Made by a program: the position numbers and the translations under genes
The notes under the pieces: model-generated
Database searches by the model: none
Told to the model about the DNA's origin: nothing
What the model saw: the letters and a program-made list of their open reading frames with translations, nothing else
Origin: Oscillatoria salina IIICB1
GTDB lineage: Bacteria > Cyanobacteriota > Cyanobacteriia > Cyanobacteriales > SIO1D9
Assembly (NCBI RefSeq): GCF_020144665.1
Contig: NZ_JAAHBQ010000019.1
Location: forward strand, 1-64,000
Direction of reading: 5' to 3'
Length of the DNA stretch: 64,000 bases
Part shown: positions 3,197 through 12,761 of the stretch, piece after piece
Layout of the letters: every line of letters begins with the position of its first letter
Position numbering within the stretch: position 1 is the stretch's first letter

Positions 3197-4180
3197 TTAA
3201 CGCTTTGTAGCGCTTACTCCTAAATAGACTCCCAGCAGAACAATCCCAAAAGCGATCGCATTCCAGAGATTGAGAGTTTCTCGAAAGGCAAACCAAGCAG
3301 CGATCGCCGACAAAACCGGATCTAATAACAATACTAATGCAACCAAGCTCGCTGAGAGTTTGCTAGTGCTATAAGCAAACAGCCCTAACGCCACTAATTG
3401 ACCCACAATCGCCAATGCAGCCACAGCTAGCCAGCCATTAAATGAAACTGGAAAGAGTCGTTCCCCCAAGATCAGAGTCACCACAAAATTAACCGCCACT
3501 CCGGTTAAGGAAGCCCAGAACAAGATCTTCAAGCTGCTTACTCTAGTTCCCAGACGTTCTGTTCCCATCAGTTGCATCGCGAAGAAAACTGCTGAAGCTA
3601 AGGCTAAAAGATCGCCTTGAATTTTGTGAACATCCAATTGAATGTCATTAATACTCAGGGTTACTGTGCCAATTAAAGCAATGCTAGTTCCCAGCAAAAA
3701 TCGGCGCTCAAATCGAGTTTGAAAAACTAACCAACCCCCCAGTGTCGTAAATAAAGGAGTTAAGTTGTGCATCAAAGCCGAATTAGCTACACTGGTTTGA
3801 GTCAGCGACCATGCCCAAACTACAGGCATCGCAGCAAAAGAAATTAAAGTAACTCCCCAAATCAAATATTGGTAACTAGACTCTGCTTCATTTGTCTCAG
3901 CTTCCAAATTCGCCTGCTGCTGAGACACTGATAAATTAGCTTCCGATTTCGGGAATCGAAGTGCCTGGAATCCTTGCCAACTAGCCAAAATCAACGCCGC
4001 AATCCAACAGCGATTAAAAATTGTCGCCTCTGGACTCAGTTCCATCTCACACCAACGAACTAAGAGTGGTACAAAAGCAGCAGCGATCAACCCAACGGCA
4101 AGAGCTGCGATCGCCAGCCAATGACTAGGTTTTTTTTCTTCGACTGCTTCTGCTCTTTCAGTAGCTAGTTGGCTATTCAT
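3197..4180 (-). CDS. EamA/DMT-family transporter
   Basis: A 327-residue membrane protein with about ten hydrophobic segments arranged as two EamA repeats. A Gln/Glu-rich loop (about residues 82-103) follows the second segment. DMT proteins of this type usually export small metabolites or amino acids. It is the last of eight minus-strand genes, 11 nt after the dehydrogenase-like gene, so it is probably in the same transcript. That position suggests export of the cluster product or of an intermediate. The substrate cannot be inferred from sequence. Confidence 0.85.
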   Translation of the reverse strand: MNSQLATERAEAVEEKKPSHWLAIAALAVGLIAAAFVPLLVRWCEMELSPEATIFNRCWIAALILASWQGFQALRFPKSEANLSVSQQQANLEAETNEAESSYQYLIWGVTLISFAAMPVVWAWSLTQTSVANSALMHNLTPLFTTLGGWLVFQTRFERRFLLGTSIALIGTVTLSINDIQLDVHKIQGDLLALASAVFFAMQLMGTERLGTRVSSLKILFWASLTGVAVNFVVTLILGERLFPVSFNGWLAVAALAIVGQLVALGLFAYSTSKLSASLVALVLLLDPVLSAIAAWFAFRETLNLWNAIAFGIVLLGVYLGVSATKR

Positions 4181-4191
4181 ACTAGATTTCT

Positions 4192-5154
4192 CTACTGTGA
4201 ATAATTTTTAATCGGCACAAAATCAAGGTCAGTCAAAGTTTTCTGCTTCTCTCCTGACAAATAATTCCTTAAAGTGTCCTTCCACTGATTAATCCGACGC
4301 AAGAAACACTCTTTCGTATACCAAGCGCGACGGCAACTCAGAACAGTATTGGGCGTTTCCAGAAAAAAGTCTACTACCAGTAAATCCAGCGCCACACCAC
4401 CAATTTCTCCCCGATTTAGGGCATCACGCACCGCCATCATATCCATTACATCATCTGGAGATGTATTAACAATCAAAGCAGTGGATTTCATCCGTTTGAG
4501 GGTATCAGCATTAATCATGTGGTGAGAATCATGATTCAAGGGAGTAGTCAGAAAAATTACGTCAGAGGTTTCCAGGAGTGTATCTAAACTGACACTTTTG
4601 GCAAAGCTACTTTGACGTGGAGAGCGGTTGTAATACTGCAACTCCATGTTGAAACCACTCAACAACCGTGCCACGTAACTACCAATGTTACCAAAGCCAA
4701 TAATTCCTGCTGTTTTACCAGCTAGTTCTGTACCAGGATAATCGAAGCAATCGGTGTTGCCCTGACGCACTTCCCGGTTAAGATCGGGAATTTTACGCAT
4801 AGCAGACATCATCAAGGCTACCGCGTGTTCTGCCACTGACGAGCCAGTATAATTTTCGGTATTGAAAATCTGGATACCGTGTTGGCGACAGTATTCTGAA
4901 TCAATAAAGTGGGTGGAAATAGTCGTAGCAATAATTGCCTCTAGGTTAGGCATTTGCTGCAAATACTCCGCCGTCAGATTCATGTAAGTAGTGATGATGA
5001 TGTGGCTGTCAGCATGAGTTTTAATTGCTTCGCTCAGTGAAAAAGCACTACCAGTTTTCTGATACCAGGCAACCTCCAATTGCTCCCTGAGATCGTCTAA
5101 GTGATTTTCAGGGATTGGTTCGCGATCGTTTAAGATCAAACACTTCTTTTTCAT
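4192..5154 (-). CDS. D-2-hydroxyacid dehydrogenase-like protein lacking catalytic residues
   Basis: This 320-residue protein has the fold signature of NAD-dependent D-isomer 2-hydroxyacid dehydrogenases, including the cofactor-binding GIIGFGNIGSYVA (about 149-162) and an NRS after the second strand. The catalytic positions are changed. Where the family has N-T-x-R-G it reads NTSPDD (Pro233 for Arg). Where it has an E-P it reads VVDFF (Asp262 for Glu). Where it has T-P-H-I it reads SCRRAWYT (Arg275 for His). Normal hydride transfer to a 2-keto acid is therefore unlikely; it may bind NAD(H) as a regulator or do other chemistry. It starts 3 nt after the methyltransferase stop, so the two are probably translationally coupled. 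Confidence 0.8.
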   Translation of the reverse strand: MKKKCLILNDREPIPENHLDDLREQLEVAWYQKTGSAFSLSEAIKTHADSHIIITTYMNLTAEYLQQMPNLEAIIATTISTHFIDSEYCRQHGIQIFNTENYTGSSVAEHAVALMMSAMRKIPDLNREVRQGNTDCFDYPGTELAGKTAGIIGFGNIGSYVARLLSGFNMELQYYNRSPRQSSFAKSVSLDTLLETSDVIFLTTPLNHDSHHMINADTLKRMKSTALIVNTSPDDVMDMMAVRDALNRGEIGGVALDLLVVDFFLETPNTVLSCRRAWYTKECFLRRINQWKDTLRNYLSGEKQKTLTDLDFVPIKNYSQ

Positions 5155-5157
5155 CGG

Positions 5158-5805
5158 TTAATCCTCAGTATCAACTACCTGGTAAATACAATAAATGACT
5201 TTGCGATCGCCATATCCTTCACGCTTGGGCAAATACACTACCGGATCGCTAACACTTTCTCGGCGTAGTTCTCCACGTTGCTCAAACCCAGAAAGGACTT
5301 TACCATAGTTGTACTGCTTAAACAATACTTCTTGCTGAGTAAATACTAGATATCCCTGGGGACGTACTAAGCGGCGAAATTCCTGCAAGACTGGGGTGGG
5401 GTCGGCAATTAGGGAAAAGACTCCAACACAAGCGATCGCTGCAAAACTGTTTTCCGCAAAAGGGTATGGTGTTTTACTCAAATCCTGCAAACTCAGAAAA
5501 TTATAGTGACCTGTGGCTTCTGCTTGAGCTAGCATCTCTGGTGAAATATCAATCCCAGTAATGTTTTGATAGCCTAAATCTACTAACGCCTGTCCTACTA
5601 ATCCAGTACCACAACCTGCATCGAGAATAGGTTGGTCTGTGGGTATGTAATGATGCAAAGCCTCTGCTGCGGTGCGATAACACTGATATCCCCAATCATC
5701 AACTGATTGGTTATAAACGGGCGCAAAGTTAGTATAGCGTTCTACTACATCCAAGTTCTTTAAGTCAGTTTGGGAAAGGTCAGAAAGTTTTAATTTCTTG
5801 TTCAT
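5158..5805 (-). CDS. Class I SAM-dependent methyltransferase
   Basis: A 215-residue Rossmann-fold methyltransferase. Motif I is LDAGCGTG (61-68), the acidic end of strand 2 is GIDIS (84-88), and CVGVFSLI lies where motif IV is expected. The ATG at 5803-5805 is preferred over an in-frame start 29 codons upstream. The 44-bp duplicate at 7041-7084 preserves exactly this leader and start (MNKKLKL) right behind the PhyH gene, where an operon start is expected. It probably methylates O, N or C of the cluster intermediate; the substrate is unknown. The adjacent dehydrogenase-like gene is 3 nt downstream. Confidence 0.85.
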   Translation of the reverse strand: MNKKLKLSDLSQTDLKNLDVVERYTNFAPVYNQSVDDWGYQCYRTAAEALHHYIPTDQPILDAGCGTGLVGQALVDLGYQNITGIDISPEMLAQAEATGHYNFLSLQDLSKTPYPFAENSFAAIACVGVFSLIADPTPVLQEFRRLVRPQGYLVFTQQEVLFKQYNYGKVLSGFEQRGELRRESVSDPVVYLPKREGYGDRKVIYCIYQVVDTED

Positions 5806-5827
5806 AGTTTTAGTCTTCTCAAGATTA
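5784..5827. repeat. 44-bp direct repeat, copy 1
   Basis: This matches 7041-7084 in 42 of 44 positions and in the same orientation. It covers the leader and the first seven codons of the methyltransferase gene. The two copies bracket the plus-strand PhyH gene, as expected after an insertion or segmental duplication. Confidence 0.9.
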
Positions 5828-6120
5828 AAGATACAATTAACTTTTGATCGCCAAAACGGGGTTATGTCCTTAAGACTTTTGTCTCTACTCAAGCGACCCG
5901 AAATAAGTATACTATCTGAGCATTTGAGTCTTGCAATTGCATCAATACTTTTTTTATAGACATTCCCGAAAAATTGTTAACCCCCCAAACCTAAATAGTT
6001 ACTGTACTATTAAATCATAATTTACCATTTAACATCCTTGACATAAAGTAAAAATAATGATATTTATATATTATTTGCTGCTTTATTCTTCTTCAAAAAT
6101 TTATTTTACTGAGGTAGTTA

Positions 6121-7014
6121 ATGATTACTTCTCAAAGTCAATTCGTTAATGAAATTGAGATATCTAGTTCAGATATTCACTCTTTTAGTAAGCAAGGATT
6201 TCTCAAACTAAAAAAGTTGTTTACTCCTCAAGCAATAGAGTATTTTAAAGAGTTGACACTCGCTCAAATAGCAGCACCTGCTGGATTTTATCCCAATTCT
6301 GAGATGTCAAAACTAAAATATGGAATCAATAACTCTGTAATCAAAGAAATGTACTCATCCAGAGAGTTTGATGTCTTCAATAAACTTACTCAGAAAAAGC
6401 TCTTATTTTTGCAAGGTGTTGGCTTCCAAATGGATACAGAAAAAAAAGGTTTTGACTGGCACGTAGGAGTGTTCAGCTTTAATTTTTTGATGCCAGAAGA
6501 TTTTGCTTGTTCTTTGTGGATACCATTAGATCCTATTAACACTAGACAGCAACATGGTGGAATGGCTTATGTTCCCAAAAATGTTGTTTCCGCAGACACA
6601 TATTTCTTTCTTGTAGACAGACTAATTAGAGAAGATGATTTCCTGGAAGCTCTTAGTTTAGGTCAATTTAACAATTTTTATCATGCTCCTGAAATGGAAG
6701 CTTTTTTACTAGAAAAAGACAAGATAGAAGATGATTTTGAAATTGGTGATGCTCTACTTTTTGACAAATTTGTTTGGCATAGAAGTTGCCCTCTTAAACC
6801 AGGAAATTTAAAATCTAGAACTGCATTTGTGATGCGATTTTCTGGCGACAAATCGCGCTACTCGAAAACATTGCTAAATCGGCTTGATTTAGCAATGGAA
6901 AGACTAAACTATAATACTCAAACCAAACTGGGTTCTAAATTTTCGGAACTTAGTGATGGTGATTTAATCTTAGAGATGAACAAAAATTATGTTGGGGCAA
7001 AAGCTAGTGTTTAA
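6121..7014 (+). CDS. PhyH-fold Fe/2-oxoglutarate enzyme with H-x-G motif (candidate halogenase)
   Basis: A 297-residue protein of the phytanoyl-CoA dioxygenase (PhyH) fold. The family layout is clear: WHVGVFSF (metal His114), then SLWIPLDPIN, then GGMAYVPKN, then FVWHRSC (distal His220) and SRTAFVMRF (Arg233 for 2-oxoglutarate). At the Asp of the usual HxD triad the protein has Gly116. In Fe/2-oxoglutarate halogenases the same loss of the carboxylate opens a site for chloride or bromide. The start ATG has TGAGG six bases upstream. It is the only plus-strand gene in the block, is AT-richer than its neighbours, and is flanked by 44-bp direct repeats. Alternatives are an altered oxygenase or a dead enzyme. 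Confidence 0.75.
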   Translation: MITSQSQFVNEIEISSSDIHSFSKQGFLKLKKLFTPQAIEYFKELTLAQIAAPAGFYPNSEMSKLKYGINNSVIKEMYSSREFDVFNKLTQKKLLFLQGVGFQMDTEKKGFDWHVGVFSFNFLMPEDFACSLWIPLDPINTRQQHGGMAYVPKNVVSADTYFFLVDRLIREDDFLEALSLGQFNNFYHAPEMEAFLLEKDKIEDDFEIGDALLFDKFVWHRSCPLKPGNLKSRTAFVMRFSGDKSRYSKTLLNRLDLAMERLNYNTQTKLGSKFSELSDGDLILEMNKNYVGAKASV

Positions 7015-7040
7015 TTTACGTATATTTAGCTACTTTTGAA

Positions 7041-7084
7041 AAAGTTTTAATTTTTTGTTCATCGTTTTAGTCTTCTCAAGATTA
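7041..7084. repeat. 44-bp direct repeat, copy 2
   Basis: It starts right at the stop codon of the downstream PhyH gene (minus strand) and carries a copy of the methyltransferase leader and first seven codons. It differs from 5784-5827 at two positions. Confidence 0.9.
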
Positions 7085-7969
7085 GACATTAGCGATACTT
7101 TTCTTCGTGCGCCCATGTCGAATACTGACACCTGTTTTGGGGTCGTCAGCAGTTTCTACTTCAAAGAACTTTTGTGTTTCAAAAATGCCGTTATATTGCT
7201 TTTCACGCAGGGCAGAATCAGGAACTTTCTCTAAGGGAATGTAGCGGTGATGTTGTTGATTGTCCAGGTTATAAGGCTCGTTACTCACCACATTGTAAGT
7301 ACAAAATAACGCTACGCGAATGTCATTTGTTTCATTGAGATCGGAACCATGTAAGGTGTTGGCATGGAAGAACACAGCATCACCCTGTTGCAACTCGCAG
7401 TAAACAATTTCCAAACGATCCAGCACAATTTTTAAGCGTTCTGGATCTGCACAACTAGAGTTAGAATTAGGCAGCATCACATTTTCTATCCTTCCCAGAT
7501 GGTGAGAACCCTTAGCAATCTGTAAACAGCCGTTCTTGCGGGTATTTTCATTAATAGCAATACAACAGCTAACAAGTTTAGGATATAAACAATAATCCTC
7601 GTACCAGGTACCAAAACCTTGATGCCAAGCAACCGAACCCTCTGTTGGCTTTTTCAAGACTATTTTCGAGTGCCAATGATAGCATTCCTCGCCTTCGAGT
7701 GCTTCTGCTGCATCCACTACGCGAGCCATACGAGGTATAACACCGAGCATACTATCTCCTAGCTCACTCCAAACGGAAAGCTTAAAGCCAATTCCACCAT
7801 AATCAACTTCCGATTGGGTATTATTTAAGCTACGATCGCGATCGCAAGCTTGTCGTAGGGGTTCGATTTCCTCTGGAGCAAAAAAGTTACGGACAATAAC
7901 ATAGCCATGCTCGTGGTAGTGAGCAATTTGTGCTTGGGTCAAGGGAAATTCGGTTTTGATTTTATTCAT
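7082..7969 (-). CDS. PhyH-family Fe/2-oxoglutarate enzyme with H-Q-G motif (candidate halogenase)
   Basis: A 295-residue PhyH-family protein, closely following the family block WHQ[D]-x-G-x-WYxxxCLYP. Here it reads AWHQGFGTWY: Gly118 sits in the place of the iron-binding Asp (codon GGT, one base from GAT). His116, the distal His207 (TLHGSDLN) and the 2-oxoglutarate Arg218 (DIRVAL) are kept, as is the jelly-roll block NGCLQIAKGSH. A kept cofactor Arg with a lost carboxylate is the known pattern of Fe/2-oxoglutarate halogenases. The ATG at 7967-7969 is preferred; a TTG five codons upstream is possible. It is the fifth gene of the minus-strand cluster. A hydroxylase with altered ligation, or an inactive protein, cannot be excluded. 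Confidence 0.82.
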   Translation of the reverse strand: MNKIKTEFPLTQAQIAHYHEHGYVIVRNFFAPEEIEPLRQACDRDRSLNNTQSEVDYGGIGFKLSVWSELGDSMLGVIPRMARVVDAAEALEGEECYHWHSKIVLKKPTEGSVAWHQGFGTWYEDYCLYPKLVSCCIAINENTRKNGCLQIAKGSHHLGRIENVMLPNSNSSCADPERLKIVLDRLEIVYCELQQGDAVFFHANTLHGSDLNETNDIRVALFCTYNVVSNEPYNLDNQQHHRYIPLEKVPDSALREKQYNGIFETQKFFEVETADDPKTGVSIRHGRTKKSIANV

Positions 7970-8035
7970 GAAAGTCAATCTCAATGTTTTTGGACTAATT
8001 TGTGCTGAATGTTGAATGAAGAAAGCTCACATAGC

Positions 8036-9448
8036 TTAGGTTAATCTTGCCTCAAGCTTCTGTTTTGCTGCCTCTTGACCAGCAATACGCCCAAATACCA
8101 GACATTCAGTTATAGAAGTGGTACTCAAACGTGACACACCGTGAACGCCACCAGTTACCTCACCCGCAGCATATAAACCCTCAATAACTTTGCCCTCAGT
8201 ATTAAGAACCTGAGCCTGGGAATTAATCCGCAAACCGCCCGTAGTATAGTGAACTTTGGGCCACAAGCGGACAGCGTAATAGGGAGGCTTTAGGGGTTGG
8301 GAAACTGGTGGAATGGGTTTACCAAAATCATCATCGTGACCTTGGATAACAAAGTGATTGTACCGTTCCAACGTATCTAGTAAAACTGAGTAGGGTAGGC
8401 TGTAATGAGCAGCTAAATCCTCCAAATTATCAAAAGCATATACTACTTGACGCCGTAAACATTTATCAATAGGCTGTCCAGATAAAGCGACACCTTGAGC
8501 ATCAGCAATACCTATACAAGGGGATGCGATCGCCAACATCGCATCTACGTGAGTTTTTCGGTCTGCTAACTCGTTAACAAAGCGCTTCCCCGTTTCAGGA
8601 TGAATTAAAACCCCGTAAGGAAACACTGTATAGCTAGCTAGCAAAGCTGCGACTCCGTAACCTTTTTCATCTGGTGAGGTAAATGGAGCTAGTTGAATAT
8701 GTTCTAAATCCACCGTGTCAGCACCAATACGCATTGCCTCTTCCAGAGCTTCGGCAGTAGCATGGGGCATATTTGTACAACCAATCTCCCCCCCTAATTT
8801 GGCATCGAATTGTTGACGAAATTGAACGTCAGCAGAGAAACCACCAGTAGCTAATATTACTGCTTTTCGAGCATGAATCCATTGTGCATCTTGCTTTCTG
8901 TTCAAGAAAGGAACCACCTGAACGCCGTTAACTCGCCCACGGTCATCCAAAGACAACTTAGTCATTTGCCAACCATTTCGAGGTATCACTCCCAGACTTT
9001 TCAGCTTCTGCAACATAGGCTTGATAATCGTAGTTCCGATCGCTTTTTTGGGTGTCAAACTACGAGCTACTCTATGTCCAGCAAATTGATTTGGGCTTTG
9101 TCGAAAAGCAATACCTAAATCCTCTATTAACCAGTTACAGATATCTGGTGTATGCTCTGCAAGAGTTTTTACCAGAGACAATTGGTTGGTATTCCGCCCA
9201 GCTTTGAGCATATCCTCCAATAAATATTCAGGACTATCTTCAATCTGAGCTTGTTGCTGTAGAGAACAGCCTGTTGCCACTAGCACTCCATCGCTGATAA
9301 TCGAATTACCACCGCAACTCGCACGCTTTTCCAAAAGGATCGCCGCAGCCCCCAGGTTAGCTACTTGAATAGCCGCCATCAAGCCAGCAAAGCCACTGCC
9401 AACTACGATTACATCGGTTGTTTCATTCCAAGGAAGCTGATAATTCAT
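8036..9448 (-). CDS. FAD-dependent oxidoreductase, fumarate reductase/flavocytochrome c type (second of pair)
   Basis: A 470-residue flavoprotein. The dinucleotide motif GSGFAG is at 17-22, and the C-terminal FAD block AAGEVTGGVHGVSRL is at about 427-441. Candidate substrate-site residues of the fumarate reductase family are kept: Arg297 in NELADRK, His400 in KVHYTTGG and Arg440. The first family His (in HPT) is replaced by an LAPFTS segment, so the substrate probably differs from fumarate. Such enzymes reduce or introduce a C=C bond next to a carbonyl. There is no heme domain or signal peptide, so it is cytoplasmic. It is a paralog of the next gene upstream. Confidence 0.85.
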   Translation of the reverse strand: MNYQLPWNETTDVIVVGSGFAGLMAAIQVANLGAAAILLEKRASCGGNSIISDGVLVATGCSLQQQAQIEDSPEYLLEDMLKAGRNTNQLSLVKTLAEHTPDICNWLIEDLGIAFRQSPNQFAGHRVARSLTPKKAIGTTIIKPMLQKLKSLGVIPRNGWQMTKLSLDDRGRVNGVQVVPFLNRKQDAQWIHARKAVILATGGFSADVQFRQQFDAKLGGEIGCTNMPHATAEALEEAMRIGADTVDLEHIQLAPFTSPDEKGYGVAALLASYTVFPYGVLIHPETGKRFVNELADRKTHVDAMLAIASPCIGIADAQGVALSGQPIDKCLRRQVVYAFDNLEDLAAHYSLPYSVLLDTLERYNHFVIQGHDDDFGKPIPPVSQPLKPPYYAVRLWPKVHYTTGGLRINSQAQVLNTEGKVIEGLYAAGEVTGGVHGVSRLSTTSITECLVFGRIAGQEAAKQKLEARLT

Positions 9449-9516
9449 TTTTTCTACTTAACATAACCAGCTATCAAGACACTTCATTGTTTTTCTGCCT
9501 AGATATCAATCCCAAG

Positions 9517-10962
9517 TTATCCTGGTGGAAGTGTTTCAACTGCCTGAAATTTAATTTCCTGATGAGAGCTTATTTGCTCATCCCATTCTTCGTGAATGTC
9601 GTCTTCTATGGCAGCTTGCCGTCCAGCAATACGACCAAAGACAAGACACTCAGTAATCGCGCAGCATCCCAGGCGGCAAACACCATGAATACCACCAGTA
9701 ACCTCACCAGCAGCATAAAATCTGGGGATAACTTTTCCGGCTTTGTCCAACACTGCCGCTTGGGGGTTAATCCGGACTCCGCCCATAGTGGAATGTGCCT
9801 TGGGCCACAAACGAACGCTATAGAAAGGTGGGTTTAAAGGCTTGGCTTTTGCGGGAATGGGTTTACCAAACTCTTCATCTAAGTGCTTCTCGACATAGCT
9901 ATTGTAGGTTTGGAGTGTTTCTTCCAGCGCCTTCTCTGGAAGTTGATGATAGTCTGCTAGAGCAGCCAGAGAATCAAAACGCCGGGTCACAGTGTCATCC
10001 ATGTGTTCGTGAATCATCTCACCAACATTTTCCAAGCCCTGTTGGTCAACAATTCCAACGGGAAAGTTTTCCAAAGCCATCATCGCCTCAGCACGAGTTT
10101 TGCGGTCTGTCCATTCGTTGACGAAACGCTTTCCTGTAGCTGGGTTGACCATAAATCCGTAGGGAAAGATTGCATAACTAGCAAATACGGCGGCAACTCC
10201 TCTACCCTGCTCATCTGGGGAAGCACAGGGCAACATTTGCAAATGCTCCATGTCAATTAAGGCTGCACCAGCACGTTCAGCAATCCGGAGAGTTTCGCCA
10301 GTGGAATCGCTGAGACTGGTTCGCAGAGCATCTTTACCTGCTGCTTCACCACTGAAACCGCCACTAGCCAGGATTATTGCCTTTTTAGCTTCGATTGTGA
10401 GACTTTCTGCCCGATCTGGAGTAGAAACTAGAGAGGCTCTAACTGCGATCGCTGTGCCTTGGGAGGTTTGGTAAATCTCTTCCAGGCAAGTGTTAAGACG
10501 GATATCCACCTTCAGGCTTGCAGCCCGCTCTAACATGGGATTGATAATGTTTCTTCCTTGGATTTCTTCGACACTGTGGCATCGTGGTACGGAATGACCG
10601 CCAAGTTGTTCTAGCCTGTCCATAAACTCGATCCCAAAGTCTTGACGCAGCCACTGTAGCACCTCAAAGGAATGGATACAAACAAGACGCACAAGTTCTG
10701 GGTCATTCGTACGTCCTGCCCGCATCATGTCTTCAAACATCAGACGAGTAGAATCTACAACACCGTGGCGGCTCTGCATAACTACATCTACTGCTGCTAA
10801 TGCACCGCCACTAATCCAGGAGTTACCTCCGTAAGAATCCCGCTTTTCTAAGACAATTACTGAACAGCCTGCTTGGGCAGCTTCGATCGCTGCTGCTAGA
10901 CCTGCAAAACCACTACCAATTACAATTACGTCAGTGCTTTCATCCCAAGAAGTCTTAGACAT
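9517..10962 (-). CDS. FAD-dependent oxidoreductase, fumarate reductase/flavocytochrome c type (first of pair)
   Basis: A 481-residue paralog of the neighbouring flavoprotein. It starts MSKTSWDESTDVIVIGSGFAG, has NEWTDRKTRAEAM (active-site Arg region), KAHSTMGGVRIN, and ends with AAGEVTGGIHGVCRL and ECLVFGRIAG. The start at 10960-10962 is chosen because GGAGGTGG lies six bases upstream; a longer frame starting at 11049 would lie inside the preceding gene. The ATG overlaps the stop of the aldolase gene by eight bases, which indicates translational coupling. As in its paralog, the HPT His is absent (MLPCAS). Two different but related flavoproteins in one operon suggest two steps or a heterodimer. 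Confidence 0.85.
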   Translation of the reverse strand: MSKTSWDESTDVIVIGSGFAGLAAAIEAAQAGCSVIVLEKRDSYGGNSWISGGALAAVDVVMQSRHGVVDSTRLMFEDMMRAGRTNDPELVRLVCIHSFEVLQWLRQDFGIEFMDRLEQLGGHSVPRCHSVEEIQGRNIINPMLERAASLKVDIRLNTCLEEIYQTSQGTAIAVRASLVSTPDRAESLTIEAKKAIILASGGFSGEAAGKDALRTSLSDSTGETLRIAERAGAALIDMEHLQMLPCASPDEQGRGVAAVFASYAIFPYGFMVNPATGKRFVNEWTDRKTRAEAMMALENFPVGIVDQQGLENVGEMIHEHMDDTVTRRFDSLAALADYHQLPEKALEETLQTYNSYVEKHLDEEFGKPIPAKAKPLNPPFYSVRLWPKAHSTMGGVRINPQAAVLDKAGKVIPRFYAAGEVTGGIHGVCRLGCCAITECLVFGRIAGRQAAIEDDIHEEWDEQISSHQEIKFQAVETLPPG

Positions 10963-11950
10963 AAGCTTCCACCTCCCCGAACACCTGTTCAATTTTCGTG
11001 TAAGGTTGGCGGGGAATTTGTTGCAGATAATGGGCTGTTTTCTCCCCATATCTTTCCATCAGTGGCTCTACCCAAAGCTGTGCCAAATTTTTAGCACCAA
11101 CTAAGTAGTAAAGATAACTCTTTTCTGCTGGCATGGGTACGTCAAAACGGCTCAGTCGCTCCAGAGGCTCGTAACGATAGGGCTTGTTGGGTTCCTTTTG
11201 CTGCACAAGTGCGATCGCATATTGCAACTTAGTATTGCCGCTACCTAAGCCTAGTCCATTGACTGTACCATCAATTACTTGACAGCCTGCTTCCAAAGCC
11301 ATCAACGCATTGACGGTAGCAAATCCGGTGTTGTCATGAGCATGAAAACCAAACAATCCTTGCCAATTTTCCCGCACGATTTCCACTATCCTACTGATAT
11401 CTTCTGGTCGGCAAGCTCCCCGTGAATCGGCGAGGTAAAATACATCTACTACACCCGATTGTTGGACTTTTTGAGCAGTAGCCGCGAACTGTTGCGGTAG
11501 CAAAGTGGAAATATTGACCAAGTTTAAGCTAGTCGCAATGCCGTACTCACTAGCTGCTGCTGCAACTCGCAAAGCGTCGTCTACTTCTTCGACGGTACAG
11601 GGAATTCTGACTAAATCTAAGACTTCTTGGCGACTGGCAAATAAGGTTTTTGGCTCTTTTTCACTTAAACTAATCATTACCGCCAGGTTGATTTTGCCTT
11701 TGGTATGTTCGCGCAGTTCGCTAAGTAAATCAGCGTCACAACGTGCAGCTAAGGGTTTGTCTGGCTTATCGCTGATGTAACCTACCTCAATAGCTTCGAT
11801 GCCAGTTTCTGCCACACCTCCTACTACGGCAAAAATTTCCTCGCGAGAAAATGACCAGCCATTCAAGTAACCAGCATCTCGCAAAGTGGCATCCAGTACA
11901 CTATGAGCATCTAGGAAAAAACTTGTCTGCTTGATAGTTTGTTTTCTCAC
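10955..11950 (-). CDS. DRE-TIM metallolyase (HMGL-like / 4-hydroxy-2-oxovalerate-aldolase-like)
   Basis: A 331-residue TIM-barrel protein of the HMG-CoA lyase/isopropylmalate synthase superfamily. The N-terminal motif is DATLRDAGYLNGW (Asp20, Arg24, Asp25) and the metal-binding pair is GFHAHDNTG (His203, His205). The DxTLRDxGYxNxW form is closest to the aldolase-catalytic-domain group rather than to LeuA. The family makes or breaks C-C bonds next to a 2-oxo acid or acyl-CoA. The usual Gly after Arg-Asp is Ala26. The start is GTG. It is the second gene of the cluster, 22 nt after the HpcH/HpaI gene. Confidence 0.85.
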   Translation of the reverse strand: MRKQTIKQTSFFLDAHSVLDATLRDAGYLNGWSFSREEIFAVVGGVAETGIEAIEVGYISDKPDKPLAARCDADLLSELREHTKGKINLAVMISLSEKEPKTLFASRQEVLDLVRIPCTVEEVDDALRVAAAASEYGIATSLNLVNISTLLPQQFAATAQKVQQSGVVDVFYLADSRGACRPEDISRIVEIVRENWQGLFGFHAHDNTGFATVNALMALEAGCQVIDGTVNGLGLGSGNTKLQYAIALVQQKEPNKPYRYEPLERLSRFDVPMPAEKSYLYYLVGAKNLAQLWVEPLMERYGEKTAHYLQQIPRQPYTKIEQVFGEVEAYV

Positions 11951-11972
11951 GATCGTTTGTAGTAGTTCAGAT

Positions 11973-12761
11973 TTATACTCTAACGAACTGCTCGGAGGTT
12001 TGCACTAAAGTGCTAGCTTTATCCAGTTTGGCTTGGCTGGTAGCAATCCGTGACTGATAAAATTCCTGGCGGTTGGGATTAATCTCTATCAAAGACTGAT
12101 AATAGGCAATCTCAAATTCGATTCCTTTCCAGATAGAAGCGGTTACATCTGTTACTCGATTAAGGTCAAACATGGTGTGGATAGTGCTGAGACGGTCAAT
12201 ATTAAATTTTTGAAGAGAGACTGCACTATTAGGATTAACAAAGCCTCCTACAGAAACATGTTTACCCAGACGACGTACTTGATTAGCTAAATCTTGAGTG
12301 ATTTGGACAACTTCAGGATTATCCACATTGTTCATCTGCATCGAAAGGGATAAATCTAAACGCCCGATAACCACTGTATCAATTTCCTTAAAGTAAGGAC
12401 TGTTGAGGATTTCATCCAACTTGTGATATCCCTGAATTGTCTCAATATTGATGGCTAAAGTTGGATTAATTTCACTTTCTTCGTAAGCTTTTTGAGTTGT
12501 AATGACAAATTTTTCTAGGGCATATTCAGACTCGACCATCGGACAAAGAATTCCATTGACACCTATTGCCCGTAAGTGACGCAAATCTGTTCTAGCTTCT
12601 GAACCAGCAATTTTAACGAAAATAGGAATCTCTTTTTGACCTATTCTATAAAGATAATCAATCTCTGAATAGTTCATATCTTCCCACTCGGTTCCAGCTT
12701 TGAGTGCATATAAACCATACTGAGAATTCATGAGCTTGAGCATAGCTGTTAAATTGCTCAC
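11973..12761 (-). CDS. HpcH/HpaI aldolase / citrate-lyase-beta-like protein
   Basis: A 262-residue TIM-barrel enzyme of the PEP/pyruvate lyase group. The metal ligands are visible as Glu107 (AINIET) and Asp136 (IGRLDLS), with the conserved MVES block at 75-78. Family members cleave or form 2-oxo-3-hydroxy acids (pyruvate plus aldehyde) or split citramalyl-type CoA esters. It starts with GTG, with GGAG ten bases upstream. It is the first gene of the minus-strand cluster, so the cluster promoter should lie in 12762-13167. The C-terminal 40 residues (helical, rich in Gln and Ser) go beyond the barrel and may contact a partner. Confidence 0.8.
   Translation of the reverse strand: MSNLTAMLKLMNSQYGLYALKAGTEWEDMNYSEIDYLYRIGQKEIPIFVKIAGSEARTDLRHLRAIGVNGILCPMVESEYALEKFVITTQKAYEESEINPTLAINIETIQGYHKLDEILNSPYFKEIDTVVIGRLDLSLSMQMNNVDNPEVVQITQDLANQVRRLGKHVSVGGFVNPNSAVSLQKFNIDRLSTIHTMFDLNRVTDVTASIWKGIEFEIAYYQSLIEINPNRQEFYQSRIATSQAKLDKASTLVQTSEQFVRV

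Follow-up and report, generated by a model that had tools for sequence, protein, structure and literature searches.

In the window (the whole stretch of 64,000 nucleotides analyzed here, from Oscillatoria salina IIICB1), we identified a gene of the PhyH family whose product is probably a free-standing Fe/2-oxoglutarate (Fe/2OG) halogenase, evolved from a PhyH hydroxylase. Comparison of sequences suggests a broader picture, which we put forward tentatively and with somewhat less than even confidence: this PhyH subfamily, found in cyanobacterial biosynthetic-type clusters, would have alternated several times between HxD hydroxylases and HxG/HxA halogenases; the cluster would pair it with a CurA/BtnX-type halogenase, leading to a halogenated small carboxylic acid; and the PhyH gene and most of the pathway genes would be common to a gammaproteobacterial MAG. 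What is new here is the subfamily and its apparent repeated switching at the ligand position. The features are listed in the table.

Table. Genes of the cluster and the ligand motif of the PhyH-type protein (coordinates in the window)
Feature	Coordinates	Strand	Basis or remark
EamA-family exporter, likely cluster end	3197..4180	-	profile match
D-isomer 2-hydroxyacid dehydrogenase	4192..5154	-	profile match; L176 relative 77% identical
SAM-dependent methyltransferase (Methyltransf_11)	5158..5892	-	profile match; L176 relative 71% identical
CurA-Hal/BtnX-type Fe/2OG enzyme, second candidate halogenase	6121..7014	+	motif DWHVGVFSF (HxG)
PhyH-fold Fe/2-oxoglutarate enzyme, candidate free-standing halogenase	7082..7969	-	H116-Q-G118...H207...R218
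Motif AWHQGFGTWY	7630-7601	-	coding sequence GCTTGGCATCAAGGTTTTGGTACCTGGTAC
FAD_binding_2 / flavocytochrome c-type flavoprotein 1, fumarate reductase-like	8036..9448	-	neighbour of PhyH in L029 65% identical
FAD_binding_2 / flavocytochrome c-type flavoprotein 2	9517..11049, start likely nearer 10968	-	L176 relative 70% identical
HMGL-like TIM barrel, nearest 4-hydroxy-2-oxovalerate aldolase (below cut-off)	10955..11950	-	L176 relative 73% identical
HpcH/HpaI-type aldolase, first in minus-strand run	11973..12761	-	profile match; L176 relative 71% identical

The PhyH open reading frame is intact, running from an ATG at 7969 to a stop at 7082-7084 (coding 7085-7969, 295 aa). A profile search matched the protein to PhyH (PF05721; E 1.5e-29, 104.2 bits against a cut-off of 22) along positions 1-212 of the 213 in the profile. 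In place of the HxD...H iron-binding triad of PF05721, the protein has H116-Q-G118...H207, with Gly for Asp, the Gly codon being GGT (7618-7616, minus strand). With the distal His207 and the 2-oxoglutarate-binding Arg218, this corresponds to the HxG/HxA signature of Fe/2OG halogenases. The sequence-only reading of this DNA had pointed out the motif, its codon, and the remaining His and Arg, and all of these were confirmed. Across the alignments of relatives H116, H207 and R218 are invariant, and W115, Q117, W122 and Y123 are nearly or fully so; all 11 HQG sequences aligned for the clade keep the equivalents of H207 and R218. A promoter and terminator scan of 5800-8100 gave counts close to those in shuffled sequence, and a scan for viral relatives of the protein confirmed none.

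The closest relative that we found belongs to a very different bacterium, a Thiotrichaceae MAG (locus L029), and is 70% identical over 291 residues. It also has HQG, with the Gly encoded by GGG as opposed to GGT in the window. The presence of Gly in this ortholog through a different codon rules out sequencing error or decay as its source, in agreement with the earlier view that the protein is whole and not generally decayed. The two genes differ with a dN of 0.22, against saturation at synonymous sites; since L029 keeps the Gly, this points to its maintenance under selection. The orthologs of the cluster nevertheless gave a divided answer as to whether the Gly is kept: the Thiotrichaceae relatives (65-77% identity) retain it, whereas Okeania clusters of the same type (L036 and L038, met a second time as L134 and L133) have a PhyH with HAD, at about 45% identity. 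These Okeania clusters include genes for a methyltransferase, a hydroxyacid dehydrogenase, HpcH, HMGL, a flavoprotein and a PrpD-type protein. Because the Asp comes from distant relatives and the near one keeps Gly, we regard it as weakening the halogenase interpretation without refuting it.

Other carriers of HQG are Moorena (L042, L046), Spirulina (L043), Amycolatopsis kentuckyensis (L047) and, on a plasmid, Planktothrix (L025), where a second PhyH copy nearby has HQA. Searching the order further brought in four HQG loci (L141, L143, L157, L158) and one HQL locus (L151). The tree built from 84 proteins places all nine non-Asp members (seven HQG, one HQA and one HQL) in a clade of 22 that is mostly cyanobacterial; the 60 proteins of the sister group, drawn from planctomycetes, verrucomicrobia, acidobacteria and other bacteria, all have Asp. 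When 30 proteins were placed in a tree with the ligand residue masked, at least four changes, in either direction, were required on the best topology to explain the non-Asp state, and the well supported branches on their own force two. A single shared loss of Asp, with all non-Asp members as one clade, was rejected (AU test, p = 7e-7). The Moorena L041 protein (HQD, DWHQDYGTWYH) and the Spirulina L043 protein (HQG, DWHQGYGTWYH) are sisters with full support; their motifs differ in the ligand residue and are otherwise identical. No column of the clade alignment cleanly separated HQG from HQD members as a second-shell residue; position 141 leans to E in the former and P in the latter, and is not fixed.

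The HQG and HQA relatives recur in biosynthetic-type surroundings. On the Planktothrix agardhii plasmid (L025, 9290-12900) the two PhyH genes, one with HQG and one with HQA, have an arylmalonate-decarboxylase-like gene between them and a polyketide synthase gene upstream of the pair. The Amycolatopsis gene (L047, 3111-4058) sits on a long branch. PhyH relatives with HQL were seen in Okeania and a relative (L045, 5741-6592, and L151; WHQLFGGVYT and WHQLYGGVYT), so some losses of the Asp may not signify halogenation.

The structure of the PhyH protein was predicted with AlphaFold2 (mean pLDDT 91.8, pTM 0.91), and the model is a confident double-stranded beta-helix Fe/2OG fold. The enzyme had been compared earlier with WelO5 and BesD, but its nearest folds (VIA-align) are GriE (L-leucine 5-hydroxylase; Z 26.9), proline hydroxylase H11 (26.7) and ectoine hydroxylase EctD (24.9). 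This group is also the nearest in sequence (phmmer E 3e-19 to 4e-14) and acts on free small molecules; however, its members have WHQD or WHSD, as opposed to WHQG in the window, and hydroxylate. According to the structure titles, GriE and H11 were solved with free leucine and proline, for which reason a free small substrate would be expected here. SyrB2 and CytC3 share the PhyH-superfamily fold (SyrB2 Z 20.0) and the loss of the carboxylate ligand, but the window protein is only 17% identical to them and falls outside the SyrB2-type chlorinating family TIGR01762 (33.8 bits against a cut-off of 226.3). Enzymes of the SyrB2/CytC3 type act on carrier-protein-bound amino acids (PMC8407142), while no carrier-protein or NRPS gene, nor any PKS gene, was seen among the cluster genes at 3197-12761. 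BesD, WelO5, AdaV, DAH and SecA, all HxG halogenases with free substrates, lie outside the PDB sequence matches of the protein and apparently represent separate lineages, so that halogenation here would have an independent origin; for WelO5, BesD and AdaV no family member appeared among the phmmer hits to PDB up to E 1, and absence from such a list is no proof of separateness. There are precedents for HxG halogenases close to carboxylate-bearing relatives: SecA (PMC12171316) and DAH (PMC12346261) both arose among HxD/E relatives, and BesD is more than 46% identical to predicted hydroxylases (PMC8407142).

A second halogenase-type gene, absent from the sequence-only reading, lies 67 bp from the PhyH gene on the opposite strand (6121-7014). 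Its product is homologous to the biotin halogenase BtnX (9pv1; E 3.8e-38) and to the halogenase domain of CurA (E 2e-27) and has the same HVG motif, which places it in the CurA-Hal/BtnX family. In the tree it falls on the HxG side of a 99/97 branch, together with CurA and BtnX, and its sister group consists of ten cyanobacterial HLD or HHD enzymes. A single-sequence structure model was too poor to use (pLDDT 34.2). The kilobase containing the gene has a GC content of 32.5%, where most of the cluster lies at about 41-49%, and no BtnX-like match to it was found in the Thiotrichaceae genome; from both we infer a late insertion, and from the latter that the two enzymes need not act together. Elsewhere, two cyanobacterial genomes carry tandem BtnX-like genes (L136, 8428-10220; L137, 8268-10110) with HLD in both copies, that is, halogenase relatives with Asp at the ligand position.

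The cluster comprises nine genes, a minus-strand run interrupted by this one plus-strand gene. A pathway building a small carboxylic acid would be the best explanation of its gene content. An EamA gene adjoins PhyH also at L023, L024 and L162. Most cluster genes have relatives in the Thiotrichaceae MAG (65-77% identity), spread over two contigs binned together. One locus (L029, 1-7619) carries flavoprotein 1 and PhyH, and the other (L176, contig C21, 7074-16580) the HpcH, flavoprotein 2, HMGL, methyltransferase and hydroxyacid dehydrogenase genes, at the identities given in the table. Also at L176 are TauD, two mandelate-racemase-type genes and an arylmalonate-decarboxylase-like gene; the window's own genome has no match to the mandelate-racemase-like copy at E 1e-8. 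L029 includes a short gene in which HpcH is fused to hydroxyacid dehydrogenase, apparently left over from a deletion.

The earlier proposal that the PhyH protein is a halogenase is strengthened by the Gly of the closest ortholog, by the recurrence of HQG and HQA, and by the HxG neighbour of CurA-Hal/BtnX type. As a mechanism, we propose that the enzyme would have arisen from a PhyH/GriE/EctD-like hydroxylase through loss of the carboxylate ligand. Iron would be held by H116 and H207 and chelated by 2-oxoglutarate, itself anchored by R218, and the site vacated at G118 would be taken by chloride or bromide. Reaction with O2 and 2-oxoglutarate would yield a halo-ferryl species that abstracts hydrogen from an sp3 carbon, followed by rebound of the halogen. 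The substrate, probably a free small amino or carboxylic acid, would be made by the aldolases, flavoproteins, hydroxyacid dehydrogenase and methyltransferase of the cluster; the PhyH enzyme would thus probably add chlorine or bromine to a small acid. The neighbouring enzyme of CurA-Hal/BtnX type may introduce a second halogen or use a different intermediate as its substrate.

Three other explanations deserve consideration. The protein could be an active oxygenase that holds iron with two His and water, as AspH does, and catalyses the hydroxylation, desaturation or cyclisation of its substrate. AspH, set beside the window protein by description only, shares the HxG motif and the two His ligands but hydroxylates proteins; it is a natural counter-example, which is why HxG is no proof of a halogenase, and FIH with a D-to-G change also retains some activity (PMC10947486). 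The nearest folds are hydroxylases, and clusters of the same type in Okeania use an Asp version. Yet HxG hydroxylases are rare among characterised enzymes, even "highly unusual" (PMC10947486), HxG/A serves as a mining motif for Fe/2OG halogenases, and a halogenase-type gene stands within the same cluster, so that we consider an oxygenase unlikely. Rather less likely still, only the enzyme encoded at 6121-7014 would halogenate, and the PhyH protein would carry out another oxidative step on the chlorinated intermediate. The former is indeed clearly homologous to two characterised halogenases, with HVG and a place on the halogenase side of the tree, but the Thiotrichaceae MAG keeps HQG in a genome with no BtnX-like match, and the Gly of PhyH is therefore left unexplained by the neighbour.

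A pseudo-enzyme, unable to turn over without the carboxylate and kept for a binding or scaffold role, appears very improbable. It would fit the HQL proteins, as Leu cannot bind iron and would crowd the site; against it, cyanobacteria, Thiotrichaceae and Amycolatopsis all retain the two His, the Arg and the motif around them, with purifying selection, and the non-Asp residue is mostly Gly and once Ala, the residues of known halogenases. Halogenation by the PhyH protein remains our preferred interpretation, with AspH, the HAD of Okeania, the HQL members, the low TIGR01762 score and the lack of a second-shell signature counting against it. So does the case of a hydroxylase related to BesD, in which putting Gly in place of the carboxylate was not enough by itself for efficient halogenation (PMC13244439). 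Since the ligand change was insufficient in that engineered case, the conversion of hydroxylases into halogenases is an active question, and natural pairs such as Moorena L041 and Spirulina L043 could allow the other relevant changes to be read from nature.

Our results point to an uncharacterised type of gene cluster with two HxG enzymes. To our knowledge, few Fe/2OG halogenase families act on free small molecules. Near the start of the window, an open reading frame at 35-343, reading FFPSSKTCHVCLNQVDSLPLDVREWTC, resembles, by eye, part of a TnpB-type transposon protein.
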